A stretch of 41,878 bases of DNA from a virus. The translations under genes and the position numbers were made by a program. The notes below the pieces were generated by a model. It saw only the letters and a program-made list of their open reading frames with translations, had not been told where the DNA came from and made no database searches. Where the stretch lies: positions 1-41,878 of IMG/VR virus record IMGVR_UViG_3300037258_001196, one strand, 5' to 3'. Of this stretch, positions 3,494 through 29,882 are shown piece after piece; within the stretch, counting starts at the first letter, position 1; the number at the start of each line of letters is the position of its first letter.

Positions 3494-3504
3494 GGAAGGC
3501 CTAA

Positions 3505-9169: not shown

Positions 9170-10354
9170 CTAATACTGCGGCAGCGTGATCTTATCGGTA
9201 AGGCCGCGTGCGCCGACAATGTCGGCGATAAACTGAACCTTCAAGAGATTGAAGATCTTGTTACGAACAAAAATTGCTCGCTTTGACTTTGGTGCAAAAG
9301 TCCCCGCGAACCCCAGCGCCGCTTTCTGCTTTTTTGCGACGAAGGGACCGAACAGATTCTGGTAATTGCGAAACGCGGTCGCGAATTCGCCTTGAGCGCG
9401 GTGAATCTCACCGGCAAGAATATAGGCCGCTATCATGGCCAGGGCTGAGCCTTGCCCAGCGAGTAGCGACACGCAGAATGCCGCATCGCCGATGAGCGTA
9501 GCGCGCCCTTTGCTCCACAATCCTTTCTCCGGATCCATTCTAATTTGGCTTACGCGGTCGAAATAGAGCTCCAGAGCGGCGTCGAGGGCCTCCATGATCT
9601 GCGGGCATTCCCAATTCTTTGATTCAAATCTCTTCCACAAAAGAGCTTTCTGCGCCGACAGCTCGCTTGGGATTGTGGGATCATCGTCGGCAAATGTGAG
9701 AAAGAAAAGCGTCCTGTCGCCGCGCATGGTAAACCGCGCAACCTGTTTGCCCACCTCCGTGTACATCACGTAGGCAAGCTCGTCTCGCGGACGATATCCG
9801 TCCGCTTCGAAGGCCGCAGCCTTTACGCCCAGATATTTCTCGAACTGGCTCTCGGCTCCAAACGCAAGTTGGCGAACGCGCGAATGCAGGCCGTCCGCCC
9901 CAATCACCAGATCGAAGTCGCGCGCAGGACTGCACTGGAACGTGACGCGAACGTGCCGTTCGTCTTGTTCGAGGGCGATAATGCTGTCGCCAAAAATTGC
10001 GTCGACCTGGTTCGCAATTTTTCCATAAATCGCTGTGGAGAGTTCACTGCGCGGCAAGCTCAAATACCGGCCCTGGGCGACACGATTGAACGATTCCACG
10101 GGAAAGCTAGCGATGCGTTTCCCATTCCGGTCTACAACCCGTAATTCCTCGAGTACATAGCCCTTGCTGCGAAGCTCCGGCAAAAGGCCCATGCGGTCGG
10201 CGATGTCGAAACCCGCGCCCCAGAAATCAATGATGTAGCCGCCGGTGCGCAGCCGCGGCGAAGACTCAACGATGGTTGACTCAATTCCATAACGTGCCAG
10301 CCAATAAGCGAGAGTCGGCCCCGCAATGCCGGCGCCGGAAATCAAAATTCTCAT
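9170..10354 (-). CDS. FAD-dependent monooxygenase (TetX/PHBH type)
   Basis: A cytosolic flavoprotein of 395 residues in the class A aromatic hydroxylase superfamily, which oxygenates small molecules using FAD, NAD(P)H and O2. The N-terminal ISGAGIAGPTLAYWLARYG is the GxGxxG dinucleotide-binding loop, with the acidic residue of IVES ending strand 2. DLVIGADGLHSRVR is the DG motif, and ATLIGDAAFCVSLLAGQGSA is the GD motif that binds the FAD ribityl chain. I chose the ATG at 10352-10354. A longer frame exists only with a TTG at 10393 and adds residues that do not fit the Rossmann start. The substrate is unknown; TetX-like enzymes degrade tetracyclines but many relatives act elsewhere. Confidence 0.9.
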   Translation of the reverse strand: MRILISGAGIAGPTLAYWLARYGIESTIVESSPRLRTGGYIIDFWGAGFDIADRMGLLPELRSKGYVLEELRVVDRNGKRIASFPVESFNRVAQGRYLSLPRSELSTAIYGKIANQVDAIFGDSIIALEQDERHVRVTFQCSPARDFDLVIGADGLHSRVRQLAFGAESQFEKYLGVKAAAFEADGYRPRDELAYVMYTEVGKQVARFTMRGDRTLFFLTFADDDPTIPSELSAQKALLWKRFESKNWECPQIMEALDAALELYFDRVSQIRMDPEKGLWSKGRATLIGDAAFCVSLLAGQGSALAMIAAYILAGEIHRAQGEFATAFRNYQNLFGPFVAKKQKAALGFAGTFAPKSKRAIFVRNKIFNLLKVQFIADIVGARGLTDKITLPQY

Positions 10355-10399
10355 CGAGACCACGATACGACGTTGGAAAGGAGAGCGAAACAACCTAAA

Positions 10400-13300
10400 T
10401 CATCTTTCGCGCGACGGTGATTTGGAAATTCGTTTCGCAAGAATCGCCTTAATTTCGCGGTTGATGTCGAATTGTTCCGCGGCTTCTTCTTCTGACTTCG
10501 TCCGCATCACGTCAAAGGCCGGCAGTTGCGCGACTGTGGGATATGGCGCCTGATCTCGACGAACCGAAAACCAGATGATTCGATTTAGCGTCTCTGGATT
10601 CGCCATGTCCTCCGAAGTAAAATCCTGCCGCTCGCTATCGCGGATCCACTGAGCTGTTTCGCGGTCTGCCGCCGGTTGGACGAGTAGATTGTTCAACGCC
10701 AGCTTAGGCAAAATCGCCTTATACGGAGTTAAGTCCGGCTGCGCCTGAAAAATATCGATGGGAGCCGCGGCCGCATCGAGCTGGTTCATTGGCGAAATGC
10801 CCAGCAAAACCTCAATCGTGCGGACCATGCTGACTGTGCTGTGATATTGATGAACCAGGGCGCCGGGTCGATTGTACGCGCTGATGACGAGTCCCGGAGA
10901 GCGGTGCGCGTCCACGTGATCGGGACCGTTTTGCGCGTCATCTTCGACCACGAAAATCGCCGTGTCTTTCCAATAGGGGCTGGACGAGACCTCTTGCACC
11001 AGCAGCCCTAGCGCATAATCGTTGTCCGCCACATAGAACTGCGGCGTCGGCATATGGACTCGCATCCCGTTCGTGTGGTCGTTCGGCAAATAAACGATAT
11101 TCAGCGCCGGGAAAGAATCCTTCCCACCGTTGTTGAGTGCATCGACATAGCCGCGAAATTCCGCCAGCCACGCGGAAAGGCGAGAGTATCCACGTAGTCG
11201 AGAGTCGGCGTTCGAACTGGAGATCAGCGCCTCTCCCGGCGAGTTTGCTTGTAGCGCGGCGCGATACGAGTCGGTCGTCATCGAATCCGGCGTGTACAGG
11301 TCAAATTCGCGATGCGTGGTGCTGAAATGATCTTCGAGCGATTTCTTTAAAGGAAATGCGACAACCGTCGGCGAAATGTCGGGATAATCGCGTTCGCGAT
11401 TGGCGTTGAAGGCGTCGATTTCCGCTTGCGAAATCGTGCTCATGAATTCGCCGTTCGTCCAATAGGTAAGTCCGGCCCGCGCGGCCGCGTCCCACAGATA
11501 AAGCGTCTGCGGCTCGCCTACGTCGCGCGCACCGTTTAGATATGGCACGTAGCGTTGAATCAGCTGCTTAAGATCATCGGGAGTAGCGGGCACAGGCAGA
11601 ACGGGCGGCAGACCGTGCATCGCCGTAATCGTCGGCAAACGATTCGTACCTTGGAAATCGTACGTACGCCCCCGCGAAGAATAGTTCCAGCGATAGGCCT
11701 TGTCGACGTAGTCGGAAGAGAAAGCGGCATCAGTCCAGTTGTGGCCGTCTGGACTGGCCTCGGAATTCACAAAGAATCGGTCTAGGATGCCGAAGCGCTT
11801 GACCAGCGCATGCGCGTTGGGCGTGATTTCCTGTGTCGTACCGCTCGCAGGACTTGCAGCTGTGCCATCGCCAAAGATCGCCAGCGAGGCATCGCCATCC
11901 GCCGGCTCGCCGTTGCCTGCCTTTGCGAGATCGCCGAAAATCTGATCGTACGTGCGATTTTCGCGGATCACATAAATGACGTGATGAATCGGCGATGCTC
12001 CCGAAAACAGGTGTACGTCGGCCGACCCAATCAAACCGTCGTTGCGCATCACCTGATTTGTATAGCTGACGAGCGCCTGCGCGTCAGGCGGCGCAATCTG
12101 CGAGATCGTCCCAGCGACCAACGCGACGTCGTATTCGCCGCCCTGGCGGTTGCTGCCGGTTCCAACAGGGAACCGGTCGTTGGGCATATTAGGTGCGCGC
12201 CCGGAATTATTCACGACCAGCGAAGAGCTTTCATACCCGCTGCCTTTTCCATTGGCAACGAAAAGCCACCCGTCCGCAAATGCTACGGCGGAAGGGTATT
12301 GCCCCGTTGGAATAAACCCGAGCACCTGGCTGCGCGCGGGAGATTTGTCATCATCGTCGTCCGAAGACTTATCATCGTCCTTGTCGCGCGCGACTTTTGC
12401 TTCTGCCGGCCCCAAATTGACTACAGCGACGGCGTTGCTATGTGCGTTGGCGACGTACAGCACCTTTCCGTCGGTGCCAAGGGCTAGCCCCTCCGGCGAA
12501 CTACCCGGAAGGGCCTTCTCCGAAAGACGGACAGAGATCGTCTCCACGACGCGATTGCTCGCTGGGTCGATCACCGAGACGCTGTCGTCGTCCGAATTGG
12601 CCACATAGAGCCGCGTGCGCGCACTGTTGAGAGTCATCGCGGTCGGATGGCGGCCAACGGGAATAAATGTCGCCGGCCTTTCCGGATGGAGCGCATCAAT
12701 CGCCGCCACAGATGCAGTCGCCCAGCACGAGACGAAAACCTTTTGCGTCTCGTGAGAATTCGCAGGATTCCAGGTCGTCACACCGTATGGGTATACGAAA
12801 TGCCCCGGCTTATCGTCTGACAAATCGACGCGCGTCAAACGCCGGTTGTAGCGCAGGCCGCGAATGATACCGAGCGAATCGCCGAGATCGTTCGCGACGT
12901 AAAACGTATCTCCGTCGGCGCTAAGCGCGATTCCCAGCGGATACACCGGTTCTTGATTCGAGTTGTAGCGAGGCGTACTCGCTTCGGTGGCAAAACCCTC
13001 GACCGAGATGAATGGAGCGGTTACCTTTGTGTCCGGTCCGTTCGACGCAGGCGTCACCGGCTGCGGATCGCCTGGATGGAAACGAAACATCCAGATTTTG
13101 TTCTCGAAACCACCTGAAACGTAAAGCGTATACGCGCCGCTTGGGTCGGCTTCAGGAGAAAACACTGCTCCAACCTGGGCGCTTTGCGGAGCGGGAAAGT
13201 ACACATTTTGAATCACGCGCGGTGAGGGCTGCGCATTCAGGTCGAGAACCGAGATCGATTGTTGCTCCGCGTTTGTAGTTGCGCTGAACTGAATGCCATA

Positions 13301-13573
13301 GCCGCTGTTCACGCTGATCAGATACTGTCCGCCGCCGTCTTTCGCGCCGCGATCGGGACTGCGGACAAACGCGACCGGCAACGATCCGATCGCCAGATTT
13401 CCCGTATTGCTGTCCAGCACCAGCGTTCCGGCCGGCGTAATCGGCCGCCCCTCCGAAGCAGGCTCATCGGACACGGCTCGCGCCTGCGAGAAAGCCAAAG
13501 AAGCTGCAAAGATTCCAACGAAGCCAAGAAATGCAAGCGAGAGTGTAAGGCACTTAAGAGAATTCGTTCTCAT
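10400..13573 (-). CDS. Secreted YncE-like beta-propeller fused to a phosphoesterase domain
   Basis: A 1057-residue exported protein. Residues 1-34 form a signal peptide (AFSQARA). Residues about 50-500 are YncE/cytochrome-D1-like propeller blades with repeated RLYVANSDDDSVSVIDPASN motifs. From about 528 comes a phosphoesterase family domain (phospholipase C/acid phosphatase type), starting HVIYVIRENRTYDQIFGD and continuing with SPDGHNWT, YLPNDHTNGM and IFVVEDDAQNGPDHVDAHR, which carry likely metal ligands. An Asp/Lys-rich insert (about 397-412) sits between two blades. This architecture is common in Acidobacteriota. It should act in the periplasm or outside, but the substrate is not known. 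Its stop lies about 45 bp from the 5' end of the monooxygenase, so the two may be co-transcribed. Confidence 0.9.
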   Translation of the reverse strand: MRTNSLKCLTLSLAFLGFVGIFAASLAFSQARAVSDEPASEGRPITPAGTLVLDSNTGNLAIGSLPVAFVRSPDRGAKDGGGQYLISVNSGYGIQFSATTNAEQQSISVLDLNAQPSPRVIQNVYFPAPQSAQVGAVFSPEADPSGAYTLYVSGGFENKIWMFRFHPGDPQPVTPASNGPDTKVTAPFISVEGFATEASTPRYNSNQEPVYPLGIALSADGDTFYVANDLGDSLGIIRGLRYNRRLTRVDLSDDKPGHFVYPYGVTTWNPANSHETQKVFVSCWATASVAAIDALHPERPATFIPVGRHPTAMTLNSARTRLYVANSDDDSVSVIDPASNRVVETISVRLSEKALPGSSPEGLALGTDGKVLYVANAHSNAVAVVNLGPAEAKVARDKDDDKSSDDDDDKSPARSQVLGFIPTGQYPSAVAFADGWLFVANGKGSGYESSSLVVNNSGRAPNMPNDRFPVGTGSNRQGGEYDVALVAGTISQIAPPDAQALVSYTNQVMRNDGLIGSADVHLFSGASPIHHVIYVIRENRTYDQIFGDLAKAGNGEPADGDASLAIFGDGTAASPASGTTQEITPNAHALVKRFGILDRFFVNSEASPDGHNWTDAAFSSDYVDKAYRWNYSSRGRTYDFQGTNRLPTITAMHGLPPVLPVPATPDDLKQLIQRYVPYLNGARDVGEPQTLYLWDAAARAGLTYWTNGEFMSTISQAEIDAFNANRERDYPDISPTVVAFPLKKSLEDHFSTTHREFDLYTPDSMTTDSYRAALQANSPGEALISSSNADSRLRGYSRLSAWLAEFRGYVDALNNGGKDSFPALNIVYLPNDHTNGMRVHMPTPQFYVADNDYALGLLVQEVSSSPYWKDTAIFVVEDDAQNGPDHVDAHRSPGLVISAYNRPGALVHQYHSTVSMVRTIEVLLGISPMNQLDAAAAPIDIFQAQPDLTPYKAILPKLALNNLLVQPAADRETAQWIRDSERQDFTSEDMANPETLNRIIWFSVRRDQAPYPTVAQLPAFDVMRTKSEEEAAEQFDINREIKAILAKRISKSPSRER

Positions 13574-13822
13574 AGGCGAGGCCCCATAAATGCGTGGCTA
13601 GATAGGCTCCGTTACGGGACGTAGTCTGGTATAACTCCGGATCGCGTTCAATCGGTTTCTGGCTTAGTTCAGAAACTTAAACATGCCTGTAACAATGGCG
13701 CTATCGGTCCTCGAAGAGTGAGTTCACCAAAAGGTGCAATCAGAGCGTTTGTGTCGCAATGGAGTGAGCGCACCATTACCACGCGCTTTAGCATGTGGAA
13801 TACGTCGACCAATCGCCGAGGC

Positions 13823-14464
13823 TTAGCGAAGCTGAGACAGGTCGAATGTCGTCGCGACGTCCTGACCGTCCGGTGTGTGAACCTCAACGGTGAGATCAGA
13901 CGAGTCAATCTTCTGTGGATCGAATTCCTGTTCGAGTACGATGCCTTGAATTCCCCAAATGGTATTCGAGAAATTCGATGACGCGACGTACGCATGGCTT
14001 GCGAGCGGCGCGATCGTATTGTCCTGGCTCACGTCGATCTGAAAATCGTTCTGGTAGTCGGGGATCGGTTGCAGAAGCGAATACGCACCGTTCGATTCCC
14101 GGTTTTGAAACTCAGGATATGTTGGCGTGAACTGGATCTCCACGCTGACGCGAAACGGCATGCGCTTTCCAAGAAATTCCTGCTCTGCTTCCTGCGCATG
14201 ATAGTTCGAGGCTGTTGCGCCGCGCTGCGCGACTTGTTCAAACGGAGTCTCAAGCCTGACCGATGCGACGTACGGTCCGCTATCAGGCGCGGAAAAATTG
14301 TGAATGTACTTAACGAACAGTTCTGAGTTGCGGTTGCCGTTGCCCGTCAAAAAAGCGTCGCGAATCGCCGTTTCAGAGAGCGGATAGTCAAACGCGAAAG
14401 CCGGCACGGCAAAGAGCAGAAAAGCGATTACAGGAAGGGAAGCAATGCGCGTAGCGTTCTTCAT
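13823..14464 (-). CDS. Secreted protein of unknown function
   Basis: A 213-residue protein that I do not recognise. Residues 1-24 are a clear signal peptide ending AFAFDYP. The mature part looks mainly beta, with a VASVRLETPFEQVAQ strand region, a central MPFRVSVEIQFTPTYPEF strand region and a C-terminal VEVHTPDGQDVATTFDL strand pair. There are no cysteines and no obvious catalytic motif. An AGGTG ribosome-binding site stands 8 nt before the ATG. It lies between the phosphoesterase and the outer-membrane barrel gene, all on the minus strand. Confidence 0.75.
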   Translation of the reverse strand: MKNATRIASLPVIAFLLFAVPAFAFDYPLSETAIRDAFLTGNGNRNSELFVKYIHNFSAPDSGPYVASVRLETPFEQVAQRGATASNYHAQEAEQEFLGKRMPFRVSVEIQFTPTYPEFQNRESNGAYSLLQPIPDYQNDFQIDVSQDNTIAPLASHAYVASSNFSNTIWGIQGIVLEQEFDPQKIDSSDLTVEVHTPDGQDVATTFDLSQLR

Positions 14465-14609
14465 GCGAATTCACCTGGGCAATCATATACCGAAGGCCAA
14501 AGTGAAATGCCCGAATTCAACAGTCTGCGCGAAGTTTGTGAGTAACAGCATGGCTAGTACGGCTGAACTACTGGATTCCACCTACAAGAACGATTGAGAA
14601 AAAGGGAAC

Positions 14610-14640
14610 GGCTGGAGAAAGTCGAAGACAATCTCCAGCC
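14610..14640 (-). terminator. Rho-independent terminator after the beta-barrel gene
   Basis: A 9-bp perfect stem (GGCTGGAGA with TCTCCAGCC) around a 13-nt loop. On the minus strand it is followed by GTTCCC and then TTTTTCTC. It stands 30 nt after the stop codon of the outer-membrane protein gene. Confidence 0.65.
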
Positions 14641-14669
14641 ATCCATGCCGTGGCCGTCAAAAACGCCCG

Positions 14670-15356
14670 TTAGAAGCGAAAGATGACGCCGATGTTTGCC
14701 TGGCCCTGGTTCGCCTTGTTCGTAATCTCAGTCTGATAGAGGTCGCCGTAGAAGTCCTCGCCGTAGCCGACCTGCTGCGTGGTGTGAGTGGGCGAATAGC
14801 GGACGTCTACACGAAGTCCAACGTGAGCGGTGGGCTCGTATTTCACGCCGCCCCCAATGTTGTAAGAAAACCGATTATTTATTCCGGTCAATACCCCATT
14901 GGTGCCGAAATGGGTAAAGCCCAGTCCGAACGAGATAAACGGCTTAATCTTGGATTCCTCGCCTTTGAGTTCCCACAGCGCTCCCCCGTTATAGTTATCT
15001 AGATTCGCCGACCCGATGTCCGCGAGTCCGCCGCTCTCAGCATTGTGAGCTCGCAACTCGGTCGGTTGCCGGCTCCAGAGGAACTCCGCTTCGAAGCCCG
15101 GGAAAAGCGCGTAGTCCGCTTCGACCCCGTAGTCAAAACTGCTCTTCAACTTGATATAGTCGAGCAGCTCGCCGCCGGAACCGGCGCCTGGCCCGGTATA
15201 AGTCGCCGGAGGGTTATAGCTAATTTGCCCTCCGAATCGCGTCCCGCCAAACGGAGTGATTTCGAACTTAGGCTCCGAGAGAAATTGCGCACCCGCTTGC
15301 AAAGCTCCGAACGTAAGACAAAAGATAGCGATCATGAATATCTTGCAGCCCCGCAT
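14670..15356 (-). CDS. Small outer-membrane beta-barrel protein
   Basis: A 228-residue OmpA/OmpW-like barrel. It has a signal peptide (about 1-23, ending LQAGA), then alternating strands such as GGTRFGGQISYNPP, FDYGVEADYALFPGFEAEFLW and VGLRVDVRYSPTHT, and ends in NIGVIFRF. The terminal Phe is the usual recognition signal for BamA-dependent assembly. AGGAG precedes the ATG by about 7 nt and a TATAAT lies upstream on the minus strand at 15419-15424. Function beyond an eight-stranded-barrel scaffold is not apparent. Confidence 0.85.
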   Translation of the reverse strand: MRGCKIFMIAIFCLTFGALQAGAQFLSEPKFEITPFGGTRFGGQISYNPPATYTGPGAGSGGELLDYIKLKSSFDYGVEADYALFPGFEAEFLWSRQPTELRAHNAESGGLADIGSANLDNYNGGALWELKGEESKIKPFISFGLGFTHFGTNGVLTGINNRFSYNIGGGVKYEPTAHVGLRVDVRYSPTHTTQQVGYGEDFYGDLYQTEITNKANQGQANIGVIFRF

Positions 15357-17032: not shown

Positions 17033-17584
17033 TCATCCAAAGAGTGACGCGATTCCGGAGCCGAGACCAAACACGTTCCCCAGTCCGCTAGACGAGCTAC
17101 CTGACGCTCGCTGACGCACGTTGAGCAGTTCAGCCGGCACGCCCATAGCCTTACCGAGCAGATTTGTGTCTACTCCGTACGTTTGTCCCAAGGCATTCAG
17201 TCCAGCGAGTTGGTCCTGCCGCTGTCGATTTGCAAACGCAACTTGGTTCTGCTGTGCTTGGCTCGCGTCGGTTTGCGCCTGCTCTCGCCCGAGCTGACTC
17301 AAAAGATCGCTATACCCTGCTGAATTCCCGGTGGCGGCCGTTCGATTCGCAGCCCGCTCACGAAGTGCATCGAACGCGGTGTTCGCCGCGCCAAGGCTCT
17401 GTTGTGTAATGTCGGATTGCTGTTGCGGCGAAAATCCCGGACTCGTAAGTAGGCTATTAACAGTCGGCATTAGCAAACTGCGATCTTGCTGACCCTGCTG
17501 GCTCAACTGCGAAATCATTTGGTCTTGCTGCGCGAGTTGTTGATCAGACAGCGCGCGGGTACTACTCTGTGCTCCGCGAGACAT
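17033..17584 (-). CDS. Q-rich phage structural protein, candidate internal/ejection protein
   Basis: A 183-residue protein rich in Gln, Ala and Ser, mostly predicted helical, with DQQLAQQDQMISQLSQQGQQ at the N-terminus and a Gly/Ser tail ending GLGSGIASLFG. Small, Q-rich proteins with Gly-rich ends beside tail genes resemble podovirus internal virion (ejection) proteins. That is an inference; no catalytic motif is visible. GGAGG stands 4 nt before the ATG. The 3' end lies 10 bp from the next start. Confidence 0.6.
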   Translation of the reverse strand: MSRGAQSSTRALSDQQLAQQDQMISQLSQQGQQDRSLLMPTVNSLLTSPGFSPQQQSDITQQSLGAANTAFDALRERAANRTAATGNSAGYSDLLSQLGREQAQTDASQAQQNQVAFANRQRQDQLAGLNALGQTYGVDTNLLGKAMGVPAELLNVRQRASGSSSSGLGNVFGLGSGIASLFG

Positions 17585-17645: not shown

Positions 17646-18056
17646 TTAGAATTTGTTTGGATTGAATCGATAGCAATAAGGTGTCCAGTCAGCGTCCCGA
17701 ACCCAGCCGAGAGTTTCGAGGCGCTTACCGAACCGCCGTGCCACGCGCGGCGGCAACCACGCATGGGCGTCATCTAAACCGCGCGCGGACAGGTCACGTT
17801 CGCCGGCGCGATGTAGGGAGAGTATCCGTTCATACCGATCGCGTGGCGAACCTGCTTCAGGCTCCATCAAAAGATACATCTCGCAGGTCAGCCGGGCGAT
17901 AGACGCCATCACGGGTCGTGCGGAGTCGTCTTCCATCACGAGCTTGGACACGAAGAGCGGATCCGAAATGTCAGGAAATGGGTAATCGAACCCCTGCTGG
18001 TTATGTATTTGCTTCAGAATTTCTAAATCGGCAGGCACGAATTCGCGGATGTGCAT
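17646..18056 (-). CDS. Phage GNAT-fold acetyltransferase-like protein
   Basis: A 136-residue protein of the compact GNAT-like family found near the tail and lysis genes of some podovirus-type phages. IREFVPADLEILKQIHNQQG is the typical GNAT strand 1/helix 1, MASIARLTCEMYLLM the central strands, and DDAHAWLPPRVARRFGKRLETLGW the last helix and strand. A clear acetyl-CoA pyrophosphate loop (Q/RxxGxG/A) is not seen, so catalysis is uncertain. The ATG at 18054-18056 has GGAG 9 nt upstream; an earlier ATG five codons before has none. Confidence 0.7.
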   Translation of the reverse strand: MHIREFVPADLEILKQIHNQQGFDYPFPDISDPLFVSKLVMEDDSARPVMASIARLTCEMYLLMEPEAGSPRDRYERILSLHRAGERDLSARGLDDAHAWLPPRVARRFGKRLETLGWVRDADWTPYCYRFNPNKF

Positions 18057-18083
18057 GAGTCGCAGCTCCATTTGACGTGCATG

Positions 18084-19091
18084 CTACGAACTGAACGTGT
18101 AGTTATGCGTAAGAATCGTTGCCGTATCGCGACCTGCAAAAAACTGGTGATTCGGTTCACACGTAACGGTGACTTTTCGGCTTTCCTGGACCACTGTTTC
18201 GATTCTTCGCAAAGTGATTCGCCCAAAGCGCCCGACGAATATATCGCTCATGCACAATCGTTCCGCCCGCATGGGCGATCCATCGGCCAACGTGAAAATG
18301 TGATGTGGCGTTACATCTAATGTCTCGGTATTTGAAAAGTGGAGCCGGATGAACGTATCCGCGTCCCTCACTTCGAGGCGCACGATCCGCGTCCACGTTT
18401 CGCCGCAGCATTCATTCGGACACCGGAGGTGTTCTCCCACCTTGCACGTTTCAAGCGGTACGGTTCCCCGCTCTCTCGTCAACACCATCGTCCCCTCGCG
18501 CAGGCAGTTTCCGCTGCCGCCGCCCGACCCGCCGCCCGTTCCGCTTGCAGTCGTTGCCGCTACAACGGCCCCTTGTGACAATGGAATTCTGCCTTGCAGA
18601 GCCTGCTGTTGGGCGGTCACATTGGTCTTCGCCGATTGCGCTACGGCCGGAGCTCCGGAACCTCCGGCTACCCAACTTAGCGTCGACGTGGTTTCGTCCC
18701 AGTAAGGATAGAAATAGTAGGTCGTAGCGGCAGATAGGCCGGTTACGGATACTGATTCGTTCGATATAGAGGTCGCGGTCCCGTCCGCCCGATAAATCGT
18801 CAGCCCGCTCCAGCTCCATGTCAGGGACGAGGTTGTTGAGACATACGTAAACGCCCCCGACCACGTGGGCGGAACAGATCCTTTTGCTAGCACGCCCGAT
18901 TTTGATGGATCGACTTTCCCCGAACTCAGCGCCTCGCTCGCAACGCGTGCAAAATTCGCACCGTCCGTTACTTGGTCGTCCAAACTCCAGCCTTGATTCG
19001 GGCCCAGCGACGCGCCCGCAAGGCGTTTCGCCGTTTCGTACAACTGGGGATTTGTTTTTCGCAGGGCCTCGATCTGACTGATTGTCAGCAT
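18084..19091 (-). CDS. Phage tail protein with a C-terminal Hint (intein-like) domain
   Basis: A 335-residue protein. Residues 1-70 are helical, about 75-165 form a fibronectin-like beta region (WSWSGLTIYRADG...TTYYFYPYW), and a Gly/Ser linker ends in GSGN. A Hint domain (196-330) follows: Cys196 starts CLREGTMVLT (block A), T251-P-H-H254 in LDVTPHHIFTLADG is the TxxH motif (block B), and VTCEPNHQFFAG...LTHN (ending His329-Asn330) gives blocks F/G. Only YTFSS comes after. All chemistry residues of a bacterial intein-like domain are present, so self-cleavage before Cys196 is plausible; Tyr at +1 argues against normal splicing. AGGTG precedes the chosen ATG. Confidence 0.8.
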   Translation of the reverse strand: MLTISQIEALRKTNPQLYETAKRLAGASLGPNQGWSLDDQVTDGANFARVASEALSSGKVDPSKSGVLAKGSVPPTWSGAFTYVSTTSSLTWSWSGLTIYRADGTATSISNESVSVTGLSAATTYYFYPYWDETTSTLSWVAGGSGAPAVAQSAKTNVTAQQQALQGRIPLSQGAVVAATTASGTGGGSGGGSGNCLREGTMVLTRERGTVPLETCKVGEHLRCPNECCGETWTRIVRLEVRDADTFIRLHFSNTETLDVTPHHIFTLADGSPMRAERLCMSDIFVGRFGRITLRRIETVVQESRKVTVTCEPNHQFFAGRDTATILTHNYTFSS

Positions 19092-19122: not shown

Positions 19123-21504
19123 TTAGTTGGTACCGCGTACGACTGCAAACGGATCAGGTTTGACCCATGGAACAAGCTTGGTCAGGGCAAACCATGCTCC
19201 AATGGCATTCGTTCCAACCTGCAACGAAACTCGCTCGGCCAGCACATTCGTGAATTGCTCCATGTCCTTTGGCGAGGGCGAAGTCAGTGTCCAGCTGCCT
19301 AGTGTCGTGAAGCTCGTATCTCCAGGTGCATACGACGAGACCGTCAGTGTGCCCGCCCCCTGAACGTAAGCCGTCAGATACCCGAACAGATTCCGCCCGC
19401 TCAATCCAGTTGCGGCCAGGAACGCCGTGTTGCAAGACGAATTGATCGCTGCGCCGTCGTCGGAGTATTGCCCTGGCGTGAGCTGATAAATTTTCCCCGA
19501 GCTATTGTTAGAGCCCAAAAACACTTGTGCGGTTCCGTTGACCCGTTCGATCAATCCGCAGGAATTCGCCGACATTGTCCACGGCGCCCACTTCCTCGAT
19601 CGTTCGGGTGAGACAAGTGGGTCTGCGAACCCTTCGCTGTAATCCAGCAAGAGCACCCGACTGACCTGCGTTGCGCTTCCCGTCGGCACGCCCACGTAAA
19701 CCTTTTTGTGCTGGGTATCCACTTGCACCCAGAGGTTTTGCCCATACTGCCAGTTGATCGAATCCCATGTTGGCTGGATCTCTTGCGAGAGCTTTATGGG
19801 TTCGCTTCCGTCGAAGAGATAGAGCCCGGACCGTCCGGCGATCACGACCCATTCCTCGCCGGTTCCGACTCCGTGCGCCGAAGGCGTGCCAACCTCGTTC
19901 GAAACCTCTTCCACGGTCCATAGCGCGGGCTCGTTGACGCCGTCAGTCGCCGTCACGTACATGCTGCGCTCTTTAACGAAATACAGATTGTTCCGCAGCG
20001 TGAAGGCGCTGCGAATACACTGGCCGTTGTTTTCGCCGATGCTCATGAAGCCCGTCACGCCGTCATACGCTTCCGGTTCCTCTGTACCGGAGCCTCTCAC
20101 GATCGAAGCGTTCAAAGGTTCGTTCGTCGGAAAGATTTCGATGTTGTCCAGCAGAAAGGCTTCGCCAGACGGAAGGAGCGTGCTGTCGCCGTAAACGCGC
20201 AACATCAAATCGGATGGAAGGGACGTCTGTGCCCCAAAGAGTTCGCCCGCGAACTCTTGATATGTCTGAGTGGTTTGGAGCGCACTGACGGAAAGGCCCA
20301 TGCCAACCTGTCCAGCGGTAGGGCTGTTGGCGTTGATTCGTAGCGTACCCTGCGTCAAGTTGCTCGTTCGTGCTACGCGCGCCCGCACGGAGTAGCTGAC
20401 ATTGTTCTCACATAGCGGATTCCCGTTCACATCGAAAATTGCACTCTGCTCGATCGCTCCTCGAATGATGCTCGCGCCGTCCGCCGTGATTTTAAATGCC
20501 TCTCCCCAAACGACGTTGCTCGATTCTTTACCCGCGCCTGCCCCGAGCGACGGATCGAGCTGCCAACCCAGAGGCCGCCCGGTTCCCAACGCATCCCACC
20601 CGCCGTCGAAAGAGAGATTGCGCCAGTTGTCCATCTGCGCTCGCTCGCCCCACCAGAACAGCCTTTCCGCGTAAGCCGTCACGCCAAGCTGTTCCGGAAG
20701 CTCAATCTGAGAAAACAGGTAATCCATGCTGACGCCGGACAGTAAAATCGTGTCCGTAAAATCGATCGTCGCTGACGTAGTCGAGTTGTCATTGATCACC
20801 ATCATGTCCGGCACGTGATAGAAACTGGCGCCGCCCGATGCCGTACAGGCAAGCAAACGCTGCACCACGTTCGATGGGCCTGTTGGGATGTCCGTGACGC
20901 TGACCTTGAAATTACCCGCCGCAGTCCATGTCGTCGCCGGTGAAGGTTCGGTCCAGTAGCCTTGCCTTGTCACAAAAACGACCACGGATTTATGTGCCCC
21001 GGGTGAAATATTTCCGCTCGTCGATGAATCGACGACTGCCAGGCCCTCTGCCGGCCCAATCTGGCTCACGCGATCCATGTTCGTGTCATCGTATTGACGC
21101 GGAATATCTTGGCCACTTGTGCCGTCACCGAAAGCCATGTACTCGCGCCCGAAATGCGTGGTCGATCTCAAGAACAAACCGGGCGCCATTCCTCCAATAC
21201 TCACGGCGGATAAGACCCCGGGCGCAGTCTCTTTGTAGAGGTTCCCCAGAGAGTCGTAGACGAGGCACCGTTGTACGAGGCCTGGCGTAATATAGGTCTT
21301 TAGGCCGTTAATCGCGGGCGACCCGCTGACGCCCGAAAGAATGGATAGAAGCCCGGGCCTCGTCCGAATCCCTCCGGGAAAGAAATCCACGTCCCGCAAA
21401 TTTGGTGAAGTCCCCACTGGCACGTCAGAAGGATCGAGCAGCGTTACCCACGATCCGAACGTGTTAAGCGGCACAGGCGAAAATGTTTCGATGGACATAA
21501 TCAT
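19123..21504 (-). CDS. Large phage tail protein, podovirus nozzle/hub-like
   Basis: A 793-residue structural protein without signal peptide. The start (LNTFGSWVTLLDPSDVPVG, then SPNLRDVDFFPGGIRTRPG) resembles podovirus tail proteins that begin with a genome-gate/propeller region. Many short strand repeats follow, for example REYMAFGDG, LYFVKERSMYVTAT and WVVIAGRSGLYLFDG, which suggest a beta-propeller, plus a central jelly-roll-like insert (about 330-480). Length and position between a small head protein and the distal tail protein fit a T7 gp12-like nozzle or P22 gp10-like hub. The assignment is by architecture, not by a specific motif. The start is MIM or the second Met. Confidence 0.65.
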   Translation of the reverse strand: MIMSIETFSPVPLNTFGSWVTLLDPSDVPVGTSPNLRDVDFFPGGIRTRPGLLSILSGVSGSPAINGLKTYITPGLVQRCLVYDSLGNLYKETAPGVLSAVSIGGMAPGLFLRSTTHFGREYMAFGDGTSGQDIPRQYDDTNMDRVSQIGPAEGLAVVDSSTSGNISPGAHKSVVVFVTRQGYWTEPSPATTWTAAGNFKVSVTDIPTGPSNVVQRLLACTASGGASFYHVPDMMVINDNSTTSATIDFTDTILLSGVSMDYLFSQIELPEQLGVTAYAERLFWWGERAQMDNWRNLSFDGGWDALGTGRPLGWQLDPSLGAGAGKESSNVVWGEAFKITADGASIIRGAIEQSAIFDVNGNPLCENNVSYSVRARVARTSNLTQGTLRINANSPTAGQVGMGLSVSALQTTQTYQEFAGELFGAQTSLPSDLMLRVYGDSTLLPSGEAFLLDNIEIFPTNEPLNASIVRGSGTEEPEAYDGVTGFMSIGENNGQCIRSAFTLRNNLYFVKERSMYVTATDGVNEPALWTVEEVSNEVGTPSAHGVGTGEEWVVIAGRSGLYLFDGSEPIKLSQEIQPTWDSINWQYGQNLWVQVDTQHKKVYVGVPTGSATQVSRVLLLDYSEGFADPLVSPERSRKWAPWTMSANSCGLIERVNGTAQVFLGSNNSSGKIYQLTPGQYSDDGAAINSSCNTAFLAATGLSGRNLFGYLTAYVQGAGTLTVSSYAPGDTSFTTLGSWTLTSPSPKDMEQFTNVLAERVSLQVGTNAIGAWFALTKLVPWVKPDPFAVVRGTN

Positions 21505-21918: not shown

Positions 21919-22091
21919 ACTTGCCCTTCTTATGGAATTCGTTTGATGCCTCGGCAGGGCGCTCGGTCTTGCTTGAGCGCAATCATCCCCCTAGGTACTC
22001 ACCGCAGTCGCTGTTATGATGGCCGTTTTGTGACACAACCCGGACGTAATGTATCTGAATCAAACGCGTCGAACACAACAAGGAGAGATTG

Positions 22092-24029
22092 GTGCGCCGA
22101 GTGCTGATGGTGTCTGCGATGGCTTCGTTTGTGCTTGTAGCGGTCGTTTTTTCGCAAAAGGAAGCGATTTCGGCGCCTGGCAGCTCCGTAACCGTTCAAC
22201 CGGTCGTGGTGGCTCAGGGAATCGCCGCCCGAGCCCTCGCTCTCGGTCCACAGGGCTCCATTTATCTTAGCGATGCGTCGTCAAATCGCATTTTTGGTCT
22301 GAAGCTGAACCCCTCCGCCTCGTCGAAAAGCACTCTCGCCTCAATGGTTTCGATTGCGGGCACAGGTATGATCGGTTCGGCCGGCGATGGTGGTGTAGCC
22401 ACTTCTGCGGAGTTGGACCTGGCCACTGACCTTTTGTATGAACGAAGCGGAGTCGCAGTTGCCAGCGACGGCACCGTGTATCTCGCCGATACCGGGAATT
22501 CCACGATACGCCAGATCGCTGGTGCCACCAGCACCGAACCAGGCATCATTCGCAGCGTGGCCGGTCGGTGGGCAGCGCCACAGAACGTTTCTCTTTCCAA
22601 ACCGATGGGAATCGCCCTCGATCACGCCGGCGACGTCTACATTACCGATCGGGCGGTGGGAGCTTTGGACGTCCTCCGCCCGGAAACCGGCCTACTTGAA
22701 ACGGTTGTGCGGATAACTTCGCCTGGCAGTGTGGTTGTAACGCCTGACGGCACGAAGGCATTCGTTGCCTCGCCCTCCACGGGTGAGGTCTTAGCGGTCG
22801 ACCTGGCCACCCATTCTATGCGCGCCCTCGACGCGACCCCGGCCGCGAGCGCGAGCTCCGATGTCCCGCCCTGTTCGTCCGGTTCTAATCGCCTTTGTCC
22901 AGCGGGCTTGGCCTTGGATGGTGCCGGGAACCTCTTCATCGCAGACTCTACCCTCGGCAGAATCCTTCGCATCGACGCAGGGACCGGAGCCTCTTCGGTC
23001 GTGTTGAGCAATCTACAGCAGCCCGGCGCGATCGCTTTTGATCAGCAGGGTCGCGATTTGTACGTTGCCGAACAAGGCCTTAGCCGCGTTATGGAAGCGC
23101 AAAGCATGGGCGCTTCCACTGGCCCTCTTCAGTTGTCGCCGGCATCTTTCACGTTTCCAAACGAGCCGATGGGCGGAGTTTCTGCCCAACAGCAGTTCAC
23201 TCTCACCAACACGTCCACTACATCTACCGTCTCCGGCTTGCAGATTACTTCTCCGCAGGCGTCCAGTGCTCACGGGGACTTTTCTCTGCAGAGCACCTCT
23301 TGCGGTGCCACTCTTGCGCCGGGAGCCAACTGCTTCATGCTTGTTGCCTTTACGCCTACGAGTTCGGCTGCGGGGACGTTCACTCCAGTTTCATTGGCAC
23401 TCACAGTTGTGGATTCGGATTCGGACTCGGTCAGCTCCACTTTGACGGGTACTGCGAACGACTATCAAATCCAGCTGGCCAATGGACAGCCCTTGGAGGT
23501 CTCTGTTTTTCAAGGCAACGCAGCCACATTTAATCTACAGGTCGCCGCATCTGGCACTTTTGGTCAGAGTGGTGAACAGGTTTCGATCATTTGCCCAAGT
23601 GGAACGCCGACGCAAAGTACCTGCACCGCAAAGCCCGCTACCGTCTCCCCCAAGCCTGGAACGCCCGCAGCCTTCACCATCACGGTTCAAACTTCCAATA
23701 CGATTACCCAGGCAAAGCTTGTGCCGCCTGGGTTCGGACGACCCGAGTATCCCGTCAGCGGCCCGTTGCTCTTGTTCTCGGCCTTCGGCCTCATGGGTAT
23801 CGCTTGGCTTCTTACGCTGAAGGGCCGTCTTCGCTACGCCGGCATCTCTGTCTGGGCTTTAAGCGCAGGATTGCTCGTCAACGGTTGCCATAGCTCGTCG
23901 ACTAAAGCCATCGCCACCCCTACCGGCGCGACGCAGATATTGGTGCAGGGGGCCGCGATCACCCAAACTGGAGCGCCTCTCAACGCAACGAGGGGACTCA
24001 CGGTCACCCTGGATGTTCTGAAGGATTGA
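22092..24029 (+). CDS. Secreted NHL-repeat / choice-of-anchor surface protein inserted in the phage operon
   Basis: A 645-residue exported protein on the strand opposite to the phage genes. I chose the GTG at 22092 because AAGGAG lies about 6 nt before it; a TTG one codon earlier is too close. The order is: signal peptide (1-27), NHL/SMP-30-like propeller (about 35-325; GVAVASDGTVYLADTGNSTIRQ, GIALDHAGDVYITDR), HYDIN-like Ig domain (about 335-440), a second beta domain, membrane helix (LLLFSAFGLMGIAWLL), basic loop, second helix, NGCHSSS and a short beta tail. The tail matches that of the SBBP protein at 3.5-9.1 kb. It has the style of host surface proteins and no phage features: a moron or an insertion into the prophage. 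Confidence 0.85.
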   Translation: MRRVLMVSAMASFVLVAVVFSQKEAISAPGSSVTVQPVVVAQGIAARALALGPQGSIYLSDASSNRIFGLKLNPSASSKSTLASMVSIAGTGMIGSAGDGGVATSAELDLATDLLYERSGVAVASDGTVYLADTGNSTIRQIAGATSTEPGIIRSVAGRWAAPQNVSLSKPMGIALDHAGDVYITDRAVGALDVLRPETGLLETVVRITSPGSVVVTPDGTKAFVASPSTGEVLAVDLATHSMRALDATPAASASSDVPPCSSGSNRLCPAGLALDGAGNLFIADSTLGRILRIDAGTGASSVVLSNLQQPGAIAFDQQGRDLYVAEQGLSRVMEAQSMGASTGPLQLSPASFTFPNEPMGGVSAQQQFTLTNTSTTSTVSGLQITSPQASSAHGDFSLQSTSCGATLAPGANCFMLVAFTPTSSAAGTFTPVSLALTVVDSDSDSVSSTLTGTANDYQIQLANGQPLEVSVFQGNAATFNLQVAASGTFGQSGEQVSIICPSGTPTQSTCTAKPATVSPKPGTPAAFTITVQTSNTITQAKLVPPGFGRPEYPVSGPLLLFSAFGLMGIAWLLTLKGRLRYAGISVWALSAGLLVNGCHSSSTKAIATPTGATQILVQGAAITQTGAPLNATRGLTVTLDVLKD

Positions 24030-25250: not shown

Positions 25251-28200
25251 TTAATTCAGTATGATCGCCGGTAGCCCGTACGAACTGAATGTCTGTCCGG
25301 CCGTCGGCATGCCGATTGGAAAGGTCATCGCTCCGCTGGAGCTTGACGAGGTGGATACGGCGGTGGAGAACGCGAGCGGTGCCGTCCCGCTGTACGCAAT
25401 TTTTGCTGTCGTCGCATTCCCTGTGAACGCGAAGATATAATTGCCATTTGCCAGCGTCACAGTGCCTTGCGAGCACGGCTGTTCATTTGTCCCAGTCGCC
25501 GTCAAGTTCACTGCTGCCGACATCGAGCATTTCACGTTGCCCGCCAGGTCCGTGATCGCCCAGCTATAGAAATCGCCGGTATTTGCATCCGACGTCGAAA
25601 CATCCACTGTGATGTGCGAGAAGCTCACGTTTGGCAGATAGATCACCGAAATATCCACCTGGTTCGCCGCGCCCGGAGCCGCGCCGGCCGTCACCGTGCC
25701 GACTGAATAACTCGTCACCGTGTTAATCCCGCACCCGATGCACGCTCCGTTTTCTGTAACAGTCGACGCGTGTGGCACACGCGTATTAACTGGCCCTTGC
25801 GACAGCGCCACATCATCTACAAAGACTTGGTTCGGATTTGCCGCAGTGTTTTCCAGGATGAAGACGCGCATCGATTGCGCCGTTGTGATCGAGCTCGAAA
25901 ACGCGTTCGGCACCCGGAACGTAATCGCGAAGTTTCGCGTCGGTGTCCATGTATTCGCCGTCGCCACATTGAAATCAGCGCCCGTCACACTGCAGTTGCA
26001 CGTGATCCCATTGTTGTAGGTCAGCGAAGCGTTCGTCGACTGCCAATTCGCACCGGTTCCAGCCAACGCCGACGTTCCCGCGTAATACGCCGGTTGCAGC
26101 ACACGCGCATTCGTCGCAACGCTCGTGATCCGGTCCGCTTCCGTGCAATTCGGGTCGGAGTAGAACCGCAATCCCGGCCGGAATTTCGCGCTCGTGCTCG
26201 TCGAGGCCACGCGAAACGCCAGCGTGTAATTCATCGTCGAATCCACCGCGACGCATCCCGAGTTGACCCCCAGCCCCGCCGTCGCGTTGTCGCCAATCTT
26301 TACGCTGTACGATCCCTGCGTCGTCGAATCAGCAGGCGAAGCGCTACTCTGCTGTTGTGCGTAAATTCCGCTTCCCGCCTGATTGATATTCGTGCCGCTC
26401 ACTCCGCCCCAAGCGAATAGCGTCGTCGAATTGCTCCATCCTTCAAATCCAGGATTTGTCAGCAGATTCGCGCCGCCTAAGTCGTTCAGCCCGTAGTAAA
26501 ATGACGGCTGCCAGTTCGTCCCGGTATTGTCCATCGCCTGTTGCGCTGCGGCCGGTTCATTCGGTTTCACCATCGTGTTCACGGAAAGTGAGAGGTAGGG
26601 ATCGATCATGTGATTCCCCACCGCTGATCCGTCGGACGGATACTGAATGCAGTTGTAAACGTTCTCGCACCGATTCGTCGGTCCGATTTGCACGTTTTGC
26701 GCGCCGATCAAATTGAAGCAGATCTGGCCAAACGATGTCGTCGCCGCCTCGCAGTCATTCGCATCAAACTCATCGTTGTCCGGATAATTTCCGTTCGAGT
26801 CCTTCGCCAGCGCAAATCCAATTGTGCCCATATTCTCAGCCGGCAAGTAACACGAGTTCTGCTCCACTTTGATCGAGTTGAACACGCCCGCCAGATAGAC
26901 GCACGTATCATTCTGGCTTTGCGCGTCAAACTCGTTGTGCTTTACCAGCGAGTTCGTTGAATCTTCATTACCTGCTGACGTGTTCCCATAAACGCCATAT
27001 GAACCGCCGCCAGTGCCCAGTACGAACCGGTTGTTCTCGATATCCGAATGTCCGACGCTCGAGAGGTTCAGCACCGTCGAACTCGCCCCGTTCGCCTGCA
27101 GATACATTTTGTCGATGTGAATCCAGTCGATGTTCGCAGTCGCCGCGTTCGGGTTGTCTGCAGCCGTGCACCCCGCGATTCCGCAGGCGATATAGCCAGA
27201 GGTCTGCGGCCGCGGTACCGTCCCTGACCCCGTTTCGCCGCATCCATACATCCCGCCACCGTCGCCCGCAAACTCAACCGCGTCATTTGTTCCGCTGTCG
27301 TTGATCGTCAGTTTGCCTTGGCACCACATCAGCGCCGTGTGCGCCGGAATCGAAATGTGATGCGTTGCCGTGTATGTCCCCGTCATTCCGCGCGCATCGC
27401 AAACTCCAGAAGTCGTCGATGCCGCCGTCAGGCATGCGTTTATCTGCACACCCGCATCGCCCCCGGCAAATCTCTCGGCTTTTTGCACTGCGTTCAACGA
27501 ATTGACGGCCGCCGTCCCATTCACATCCAGGTTGTAATTCGGCGTCGTCGTGTTCACGCCCAGCGAATTGTATGTAAACCAGTGGACTGCAAGCATCCAG
27601 CCGATTGGATACGTGTTGCCGATGCTCGTTTGCGTCTGCCCCGCATACAGAAAGCTTGTTGCGGGAGCCGAAAAATTTAGCGCCTGCCCCACGGGCGCCT
27701 CGTAGGCTGGCGCCGACGTCAAGATCGCCATGCAGTACCCATTGTTCGCAGCTGGTGCCGAGGCCGGAGCCGTCCAAGTCCAATTGATCGCGTTGTTCGA
27801 GCCGCTCACGGTCACAGCCGCAGAGTATGCAAATGACGAGATGTACCAGAATGGCGTCGGCGACGGATTGCAGTGGCTTATCCCACCTCCCGACGTAATC
27901 CAAAGCACCGCATAATAGGTTCCCGCTCCGAGCGTCCCGCCCGTAGTTGCGGTTCCCGCCAAATTCGTCGGTGGCAACAACGCTTGCGTCTCGAGATCGA
28001 CGTCGCCAGTCGCATTCTGCTGCACGCCGGACGTATACCCGTGCGTTGCGCCGTCGCCAAAGAGCAGGCCCGTCGACGCATCGATCGCCACTCTCGCCAG
28101 CGCTGCGCCTGATGTAAACCATCGTGTCGAAATCGTGGGATATAGCGGCCCGTCGAACGCAGTTGTAGGAATCGTTGTGCCCGAATCGCTAAAGTTCGCT

Positions 28201-29882
28201 GCCCCGCTCGTGAAATCCAATCCGACTGCGCTGTCTATCTGCGAACCGTCCCACACCGTCCCGCCGCCGCACGAGCCAATGTACCCTTGCGAATCGCTCT
28301 CATAGCTCCGCAGGATGCCTTGCTGCAGACACAGCAGATTCGCGCCACCGCCTTGCTGTACGGAATTGTGGAACGTGATGCTCTGCGAATACCCTGCGAA
28401 ATTCAGGTTCAGCAATTCTTCGGGCGCCGTGTAATCAGCCAAATAGGAGTTGTCAAATTCCACGCCAAGCAGCCCGGGAAGGTTTCCTGCGGTTGTTTCG
28501 GCCACGTTCATAAACGGCGACGCATTGTTGTTCTCTTGCAGCACGTTGCGGAACACCCAGCTTCCTGCAAGCGTCGCCGTCGGGCCGTAGCGTTGTATAT
28601 ATTGAAAGCCGCCGCCAAAACTCCACACATTCTCCACCGTGACGTTGTTGACGTAGCTTCCCTCTCCAAACGTGGGAGTCTCGCCGGTCCAGATCATTGT
28701 CGGCAAAGACCCCGTCGCCGCCGTATAAGAACCGCCGTTGATCAGTATCCAGAGATCGTTCGTCAGCTTGAGTGGCGTGTTGTCCGTGAATCCCGTGTTC
28801 GCGCTCGCCATAGAATCGTTTAGAAGTTTGTCGTTGCCGCTCCGGCTGAATTGGACGCACTGGTTGTAACACTGCATCGAGAGATTCTCGATCGTCACGC
28901 CGTTGACGTGTACCGAACCGCTCTGCTGCGTAAAAAGAAAGACGGGTCCCGCATCGGGGTTCGACCCGTTCGTCACCAGAATCACCGCGCCCTGCGGCTC
29001 TGTGCGCCCTTGTCCGGCCCACGCCTGTGATCCGTTCGAATAGACGTATAAATCTCCGCACGTTGGATCGAAAATCGGTGTCGTCACCGACGAGCCGCCT
29101 TGCGTCTGCGTCACGTGATAGGTCCCAGGAGGAAAGTAAATCCCTGGCCTAGGCGAAGAGCTTTCCAACGCGAAACCACACGCCGCGGTAATCGCCGCCT
29201 GAATCGACGCGGTCGCGTCGGTCGCTCCCGTCGGGTTCGCGTTGTACGGTGGTGCCGTCACGTCGATGTACGGCCGCGGCCCGGAAAGAGCAGTATTGCC
29301 GTTCACCGTCAACGAAGACGGCGTAAACGTTCGCGGACTGAAATTCGCCGTCGTTAGGGTCCCAGTCACCGTCGCATTTCCTGCCACGCTCAAATTTCCG
29401 CCGAGCGTCAGCCCGAACGCCGAAATATCATTTCCGCTGCCGTTTGAGCTGACGTCCGGCGGCAGAATCACGTCGGGATAGTTTTCTGTTCCCTGAATGC
29501 TTGCCCCTGTGATTTGGAGCAGATATCGGCCCGCTGGTGCATAGAAGTGATAGTTTCCTATCCCGTCCGTCTGTAAGGGATTGGACGCCGTCGTTGTCAG
29601 CGTCGCGTCCGTATAGAGCGTCGCAAGAGGCGAGCACGGCGTCCCCGTCGCCGTCGGCTGGCAGACACGCACCATTGCCCCGGCCACCGGGTGCCCCGCA
29701 GGTCCAAAGACGATATCGTCCTTTCGCGAACCCTGAGCCGCTGCGCTGGTAACCGTCAGCAGCAACGCTGCAATTATGCAAACCATAGCCGTACTGCAGC
29801 GTCGCGCATACGGTCTCGGCAGAATATGCGTATGGTCGCTTCCCTCGTGCTGCAACCCTCTAGTAATCGTCATCGCTCGCAT
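25251..29882 (-). CDS. Giant tailspike-like protein with two pectate-lyase-type beta-helices and a signal peptide
   Basis: A 1543-residue protein. The N-terminus has a 30-residue basic lead and then AMVCIIAALLLTVTSAAAQG, a signal-peptide-like segment. Residues about 55-130 form a fibre-head module (VAGAMVRVCQ...LATLYTDATL...NPLQTDGIGNYHFYAPAGRY) common in phage fibres. A first beta-helix (about 205-620) begins NPTGATDATASIQAAITAAC with PGIYFPPGTYHV. A second begins GGDAGVQINACLTAAS (about 820-1100). Jelly-roll, carbohydrate-binding-like regions (LTNPGFEGW onward) and a beta tail ending SYGLPAIILN follow. By family these spikes bind or depolymerise polysaccharide. A signal peptide is not expected on a virion protein, so export of this protein is an open question. 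Confidence 0.8.
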   Translation of the reverse strand: MRAMTITRGLQHEGSDHTHILPRPYARRCSTAMVCIIAALLLTVTSAAAQGSRKDDIVFGPAGHPVAGAMVRVCQPTATGTPCSPLATLYTDATLTTTASNPLQTDGIGNYHFYAPAGRYLLQITGASIQGTENYPDVILPPDVSSNGSGNDISAFGLTLGGNLSVAGNATVTGTLTTANFSPRTFTPSSLTVNGNTALSGPRPYIDVTAPPYNANPTGATDATASIQAAITAACGFALESSSPRPGIYFPPGTYHVTQTQGGSSVTTPIFDPTCGDLYVYSNGSQAWAGQGRTEPQGAVILVTNGSNPDAGPVFLFTQQSGSVHVNGVTIENLSMQCYNQCVQFSRSGNDKLLNDSMASANTGFTDNTPLKLTNDLWILINGGSYTAATGSLPTMIWTGETPTFGEGSYVNNVTVENVWSFGGGFQYIQRYGPTATLAGSWVFRNVLQENNNASPFMNVAETTAGNLPGLLGVEFDNSYLADYTAPEELLNLNFAGYSQSITFHNSVQQGGGANLLCLQQGILRSYESDSQGYIGSCGGGTVWDGSQIDSAVGLDFTSGAANFSDSGTTIPTTAFDGPLYPTISTRWFTSGAALARVAIDASTGLLFGDGATHGYTSGVQQNATGDVDLETQALLPPTNLAGTATTGGTLGAGTYYAVLWITSGGGISHCNPSPTPFWYISSFAYSAAVTVSGSNNAINWTWTAPASAPAANNGYCMAILTSAPAYEAPVGQALNFSAPATSFLYAGQTQTSIGNTYPIGWMLAVHWFTYNSLGVNTTTPNYNLDVNGTAAVNSLNAVQKAERFAGGDAGVQINACLTAASTTSGVCDARGMTGTYTATHHISIPAHTALMWCQGKLTINDSGTNDAVEFAGDGGGMYGCGETGSGTVPRPQTSGYIACGIAGCTAADNPNAATANIDWIHIDKMYLQANGASSTVLNLSSVGHSDIENNRFVLGTGGGSYGVYGNTSAGNEDSTNSLVKHNEFDAQSQNDTCVYLAGVFNSIKVEQNSCYLPAENMGTIGFALAKDSNGNYPDNDEFDANDCEAATTSFGQICFNLIGAQNVQIGPTNRCENVYNCIQYPSDGSAVGNHMIDPYLSLSVNTMVKPNEPAAAQQAMDNTGTNWQPSFYYGLNDLGGANLLTNPGFEGWSNSTTLFAWGGVSGTNINQAGSGIYAQQQSSASPADSTTQGSYSVKIGDNATAGLGVNSGCVAVDSTMNYTLAFRVASTSTSAKFRPGLRFYSDPNCTEADRITSVATNARVLQPAYYAGTSALAGTGANWQSTNASLTYNNGITCNCSVTGADFNVATANTWTPTRNFAITFRVPNAFSSSITTAQSMRVFILENTAANPNQVFVDDVALSQGPVNTRVPHASTVTENGACIGCGINTVTSYSVGTVTAGAAPGAANQVDISVIYLPNVSFSHITVDVSTSDANTGDFYSWAITDLAGNVKCSMSAAVNLTATGTNEQPCSQGTVTLANGNYIFAFTGNATTAKIAYSGTAPLAFSTAVSTSSSSSGAMTFPIGMPTAGQTFSSYGLPAIILN

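Follow-up and report, generated by a model that had tools for sequence, protein, structure and literature searches.

The window analysed here, i.e. the whole stretch of 41,878 nucleotides of DNA from a virus of Acidobacteriota, which are soil bacteria, carries on its minus strand (18084..19091) the gene of a 335-aa tail protein capped by a Hint domain. The limits of this gene are given by an ORF with its ATG at 19091 and by the end-to-end alignment of 17 intact copies. All the parts described below lie on the same strand. The N-terminal part (residues 1-72, 18876..19091), which begins with MLTISQIEALRKTNPQLYE... and is conserved in orthologues, corresponds to helices predicted by a low-confidence model. 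It is followed by a beta-rich domain (residues 73-142, 18666..18875; pLDDT about 69-82 over most of it) that is common to the J-like protein of another locus, L006. Further on, a Gly/Ser linker (residues 183-195, 18507..18545, SGTGGGSGGGSGN), ending in GGGSGGGSGN, leads to the Hint domain, delimited by hhalign, AlphaFold2 (AF2) and Foldseek as the 135 residues from Cys196 to Asn330 (18102..18506); this span is exactly the one proposed by an earlier, sequence-only reading of this DNA.

Cys196 (18504..18506), the first residue of the Hint domain, is the predicted nucleophile of the N-S acyl shift. Block B (TxxH) is represented by TPHH at residues 261-264 (18300..18311), and not at residues 251-254 where the sequence-only reading had placed it. 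The module ends with THN330, in which His329-Asn330 (18102..18107) is the predicted site of Asn cyclisation, and only the five residues YTFSS (residues 331-335, 18087..18101) separate it from the stop codon. The other landmarks announced from the sequence, i.e. GSGN before Cys196, the His-Asn pair and the terminal YTFSS, are all present in the ORF.

The only whole-protein structure is a low-confidence AF2 model built from 6 sequences, and a fold search with this model found nothing usable for the N-terminal part. This part resembles the start of the protein encoded by a syntenic relative, L065 (MPILLRKIESVRLKNPELYEDL). Furthermore, residues 39-295 of the window protein align with the tail protein of L006 at 41% identity. 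As the gene also lies in a block of virion genes and adjoins a virion structural gene, the carrier can be regarded as a tail protein, as had been suggested. Gene order and the homologous tail proteins would thus place the Hint protein in the virion.

Identification of the module as a Hint domain relies on homology and predicted fold. None of the curated Hint models (PF14890, PF14623, PF01079, PF13403) reached its cut-off with the window Hint, the best score being 13.9 bits vs a cut-off of 35.8. The window Hint matches Intein_splicing below the Pfam threshold (E 0.047), and the Hint of one orthologue matches Vint (E 0.01) and Hint (E 0.071), also below it. The window protein belongs to no significant family in Pfam or PHROGs and a PDB hmmsearch with six close sequences retrieved no match, null results that can be attributed to divergence. 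By contrast with the curated models, hhalign comparison of the 17-member family with accepted Hints gave a probability of 97.2 and a score of 66.7, aligning positions 1-135 with positions 1-133, vs a score of at most 16.9 in 100 column shuffles. The target comprised the Hint of L065 and three accepted Hints taken from L080, a tandem-Hint protein, and L071, which is RHS-like; the probability was still 95.9 when L065 was left out. A single-sequence HMM test gave 24.4 bits vs at most 6.1 in 500 shuffles, and independent support comes from tblastn, which weakly matched a polymorphic-toxin protein annotated as HINT (E 8e-3). The profile match expected by the sequence-only reading was therefore obtained with hhalign and not with curated Pfam models. 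The expected fold was also recovered: AlphaFold2, run on the Hint alone with 17 sequences, predicted an all-beta structure (pLDDT 76.8, pTM 0.71), whose best Foldseek match in the PDB is the bacterial intein-like (BIL) domain 2LWY from Clostridium thermocellum (E 1.2e-8, TM 0.81/0.82). Among the 50 matches listed, all are Hint structures (BIL, intein or hedgehog). Homology and predicted fold together confirm that the C-terminal module is a complete Hint, a member of the superfamily that lies below the curated Pfam cut-off.

Orthologues of the Hint protein were found in 5 virus contigs and 13 Acidobacteriota metagenome-assembled genomes, and tblastn against annotated phages retrieved no orthologue. 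In the class of one orthologue-bearing genome, 19 of 399 genomes had a match, two of them being more distant (L057/L064 and L058/L065). The alignment includes 17 intact copies from Acidobacteriota phages and prophages, that of the window among them, the others being 60-82% identical to the window protein. The copies in L034 and L037 are broken, and L033 lacks middle residues and most of the linker while keeping GGSGSC and the Hint. All 17 copies share C196, T261, P262, H263, H264, C280, C311, H329, N330, Y331, F333 and S335; the catalytic set claimed from the sequence is thus complete in each of them, and all have the Tyr at position +1, which is no splicing nucleophile. His315 of block F is replaced by Ala in one copy. 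The C-terminal tail reads Y(T/N)F(S/T)S throughout, with a pN/pS of 0.12 that reflects conservation at the amino-acid level. With synonymous sites saturated among the 17 copies (pS 0.63-0.84), dN/dS is about 0.11 in the Hint and 0.11-0.16 in the carrier; it falls to 0.03 in the block-B segment (258-280) and to 0.07 in the linker, which has 95% mean column conservation. The stop codon varies among orthologues (TAG, TAA, TGA) and its place is fixed, which indicates a true C-terminus; a hidden C-extein reached by read-through was rejected for the same reason. The invariant Cys280 (18252-18254) and Cys311 (18159-18161) could form a disulphide or a redox switch. A class 3 (WCT) intein, prompted by Cys311, also seems unlikely, as this residue lies by eye off position 4 of block F and Cys1 is present.

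Upstream of the Hint gene, g793 (19123..21504, minus strand) encodes a 793-aa nozzle/stabilization-like virion protein (phrog_3287 virion structural protein, E 1.2e-8) that also weakly matches 'phage stabilization protein' and is syntenic in relatives. Downstream, a gene (17646..18071, minus strand) encodes a 141-aa protein that is acetyltransferase-like by eye, without any significant family match in Pfam or PHROGs; it is syntenic in the orthologous loci and in L065 (34%). It precedes g183 (17033..17584, minus strand), whose 183-aa Gln/Ala-rich product is internal-virion-protein-like by eye and which is also syntenic, including in L065 (33%). The order common to the relatives is g116 - g793 - Hint protein - (small YYxTTL gene) - 141-aa gene - g183. 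A 158-aa gene encodes an SLT transglycosylase domain, and terL is found at 39138-40685. The set of P22 tail and ejection genes includes those of the adaptor gp4, the nozzle gp10, the needle gp26 and ejection proteins; from gene order only, the Hint gene presumably takes the position that the tail-needle gene has in P22-type phages. As far as gene context goes, the phage would be short-tailed as claimed: the window has portal-, adaptor-, nozzle/'stabilization protein'-like and SLT genes, and none that is recognisable as a tape-measure gene.

Several other features of the region can be mentioned. The small YYxTTL gene (MTGKxYYxTTLxxW...HPLLRHRVF) directly follows the Hint gene in nearly all relatives; in the window, the gene next to the Hint gene lies just 12 bases away and the YYxTTL gene is found at 41213-41584 (minus strand), at the right end of the contig beyond terL, possibly because of a relocation or an assembly effect. 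In L006, the gene downstream of the J-like protein resembles it by eye. In L026 (9017-11849) and L031 (9008-11417), variable cargo, including a short-chain dehydrogenase in L031, separates the Hint gene from the phage genes that follow. Within the tail block of the window, an NHL-repeat gene (22089-24026, plus strand) lies on the opposite strand between the adaptor-like and g116 genes, a position at which relatives have a similar-sized gap. A 1543-aa tailspike-like protein (25251-29882, minus strand) has an N-terminus like a signal peptide, recalls pectin-lyase folds in its sequence, and gave no match in Pfam. The left part of the window (9170-15356 and 13-9060) carries host-like genes (FAD-binding, phosphoesterase/beta-propeller, outer-membrane barrel), one of which, on the plus strand, encodes a 1851-aa protein matching a 'hydrolase' phrog; these genes suggest a prophage edge or cargo.

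The same C-terminal layout, i.e. a Gly-rich linker, Cys...His-Asn, 4-8 residues and a stop, occurs with very different Hints in other Acidobacteriota phage regions, a recurrence on unrelated tail proteins that goes beyond the sequence-only reading. The carriers are two J-like proteins, one minor-tail-L-like protein, one tail fibre, one syntenic relative and one weaker case (L097). The syntenic relative L065 (397 aa) ends with GGGGGDGGGGGGG-C...SPSH...SHN-KLMLL, and its strongly diverged Hint passes Pfam Hint_2 (33.2 vs 28.4). The J-like protein of L006/L007 (1346 aa; phrog_1101, Phage-tail_3) ends with C...TPNH...AHN-FKSN; its Hint, which differs from that of the window, is Vint-like (E 5.7e-6, 26.7 bits vs a cut-off of 27). 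The central-fibre-J-like protein of L064 (1194 aa; phrog_31, E 3.4e-41) ends with GTGSGTGGGSGL-C...SPCE...IHN-YPILPC. Three more carriers were added by a phylum-wide search of Acidobacteriota. The L-like protein of L093, encoded directly after a tape-measure gene, has a PT-HINT above cut-off, a sub-threshold Phage_tail_L match (E 3.5e-4) and weak tblastn matches to phage minor tail/tip L proteins, and ends with VHN-TKQPEILV. The tail fibre of L091, which ends with VHN-MKAQTL, is encoded next to baseplate-assembly and tail-protein genes. The long protein of L097 ends with AHN-ILNK; tail and tape-measure genes, both weakly matched, lie upstream of its gene. In L101, the gene that follows that of the L-like Hint protein (7183-8865, minus strand) encodes a protein with a PA14 domain, which may be a sugar-binding part of the tail.

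Cys1 and HN are found in all seven lineages. Each also has a Gly-rich linker, a feature favoured by ascertainment as the phylum-wide search profile included the linker. Block B is TPNH, SPSH, TPEH or TYEH in four other lineages and is altered in L064 (SPCE) and L097 (AGRH), whose Hints are identified mostly through motif and position, their profile scores being close to those of the shuffles. After Asn, the lineages have Y, F, K, M, T or I, and the tails FKSN, KLMLL, YPILPC, MKAQTL, TKQPEILV and ILNK have no common sequence. The carriers look like components of short-tailed (window, L065), siphovirus-like (L006, L064, L093) and baseplate-bearing (L091) phages. Searched by tblastn against annotated phages, the L006 Hint gave chance matches only. 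The L065 Hint had weak phage matches including terL, ribonucleotide reductase and methyltransferase, which are plausible intein sites and not tail proteins. Other Hint_2/Intein_splicing matches from Terriglobia resemble inteins, an RHS protein and a tandem-Hint protein; in the latter, a cellular protein (L070/L080, G028:C144), tandem Hints are separated by HN-KGG(G)-C, and a long stretch without Hint comes after them. The isolated Acidobacteriota phage Tunturi_4 has a tail segment in common, yet no Hint in the two tail proteins examined.

The window protein is probably a tail-tip (or tail-needle/fibre) component whose active, A-type-BIL-like C-terminal Hint removes itself. Cys196, helped by TPHH, would attack the Asn195-Cys196 bond and form a thioester with the 195-residue tail part. 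As there is no usable +1 nucleophile, this thioester would yield to water or to an external nucleophile, and the tail part would be set free, ending in a flexible ...GGGSGGGSGN. Asn330, helped by His329, would cyclise and release YTFSS. The tail protein would thereby lose the Hint from its distal end, most likely in a maturation step after folding or assembly. We infer cleavage at both ends, as well as its timing in assembly, its functional benefit and any covalent coupling. BIL domains lacking a +1 nucleophile mainly give cleaved products (PMC7664689; PMC7765530), and self-cleavage is the best reading because the residue set and the fold match this group of BILs. The trimming or release envisaged by the sequence-only reading is thus consistent with the anatomy of the module and fits the behaviour of A-type BILs (PMC7664689, PMC7765530). 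The variety of +1 residues (Y, F, K, M, T or I) suggests that splicing is not the conserved or selected reaction. N-terminal cleavage may be lost in L064 and L097, where block B is altered.

The unusual conservation of YTFSS is hard to explain as mere waste and speaks against self-cleavage; these residues may act as a C-extein strand that holds the active site, or may be a retained part. Such retention would suit a domesticated Hint that does not cleave and serves as a structural cap, a trimer organiser or a receptor-binding knob, as would its constant C-terminal location on distal tail proteins and the degraded block B of L064 and L097. This is nevertheless unlikely, as C1, TPHH and HN are invariant in 17/17 copies, and C1 and HN are kept in 7/7 lineages despite extreme divergence elsewhere. 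Cleavage at the C-terminal end only, with Asn330 cyclisation trimming or releasing YTFSS from a Hint that stays on the tail protein, would account for the pN/pS of this tail and for HN being the best-kept motif across lineages while block B is not. However, C1 is equally universal and the tails of the other lineages lack a common sequence, making this reading very improbable.

The conserved Gly/Ser linker, Gly-rich in every lineage, the distal position of the J-like carriers and the lack of a +1 nucleophile for thioester resolution would all agree with a hedgehog-like acyl transfer, in which the Cys196 thioester would be kept in the virion until an amine or thiol, on the host surface or on a second virion protein, couples the tail part via its Gly-rich end. 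This is rather improbable: neither a conserved acceptor nor an adduct-recognition region is found, free thioesters hydrolyse, and the conservation of HN is left unexplained. Indeed, hedgehog-type transfer does not need Asn cyclisation, whereas the retention of HN in all lineages suggests that this cyclisation matters. It is quite improbable that these proteins form a general class of tail tips with exchangeable C-terminal Hints, whose distal thioester would bind the tip covalently, either to a further virion protein or to the surface of the host. Lastly, the common ancestry of Hints and inteins, and the frequent presence of inteins in phage genes such as terL, could suggest a functionless relic, i.e. 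a decaying selfish intein or one that has lost its C-extein. It is hardly credible, as the Hint is under the same purifying selection as its carrier, has no homing endonuclease, and recurs with the same layout on unrelated genes; it was rejected on this selection and on the lack of any Hint-less allele among the homologues found.

For phage tails, the known cases of self-processing mostly involve protease-type and chaperone-type C-terminal domains. In the open-access literature searched, phage Hints are described only as inteins, in enzymes such as terminase and ribonucleotide reductase and in a small number of other genes; no tail-tip protein with a Hint is reported there. BIL/Hint chemistry is already known; what appears to be new is that such a domain forms a fixed cap at the C-terminus of phage tail proteins of several kinds. 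The Hint-ended tail proteins suggest that self-cleavage is a way in which some phages complete their tail tips or arm them chemically. If true, an intein-type module recurring on J-like, L-like, fibre and short-tail proteins would extend the chemical repertoire of virion maturation or host attachment, reveal a setting in which purifying selection rather than homing keeps Hint domains, and provide a source of compact cleaving Hints for protein engineering.

Among known systems, the A-type BIL of C. thermocellum (2LWY) is closest: it is the best PDB match (TM 0.81) and shares Cys1, the TxxH of block B, the terminal HN and the lack of a +1 Ser/Thr/Cys, a residue set found in 17/17 copies. However, described BILs are found in hypervariable, nonconserved bacterial proteins (PMC7765530), whereas the window Hint is a fixed cap, with five residues behind it, of a conserved and syntenic phage tail protein. 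Inteins, including the phage-type mini-inteins gp41-1 and DnaB class 3, share the fold (TM 0.75-0.79 of query) and blocks A, B, F and G. Unlike them, the window Hint does not interrupt an otherwise intact coding sequence between exteins; it lacks a homing endonuclease, has Tyr at +1 in 17/17 copies and has no C-extein worth ligating, YTFSS alone following Asn330. The Hedgehog Hog/Hint domains (1AT0, 6TYY) give a weaker fold match (TM 0.63-0.74) and share the C-terminal position and the N-terminal thioester step, but the window Hint ends in HN, for Asn cyclisation, and the stop five residues later leaves no sterol-recognition or other adduct region. The PT-HINT of polymorphic toxins also lies behind a long filamentous or secreted carrier; it just precedes a C-terminal toxin, whereas here YTFSS is followed by a stop, encoded by three different codons among orthologues. 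Peptidase_S74-type chaperones are self-cleaved C-terminal modules of phage tailspikes and fibres. Although unrelated in fold and chemistry, they resemble the window Hint, whose own cleavage is predicted, as self-cleaving C-terminal modules of distal tail proteins.
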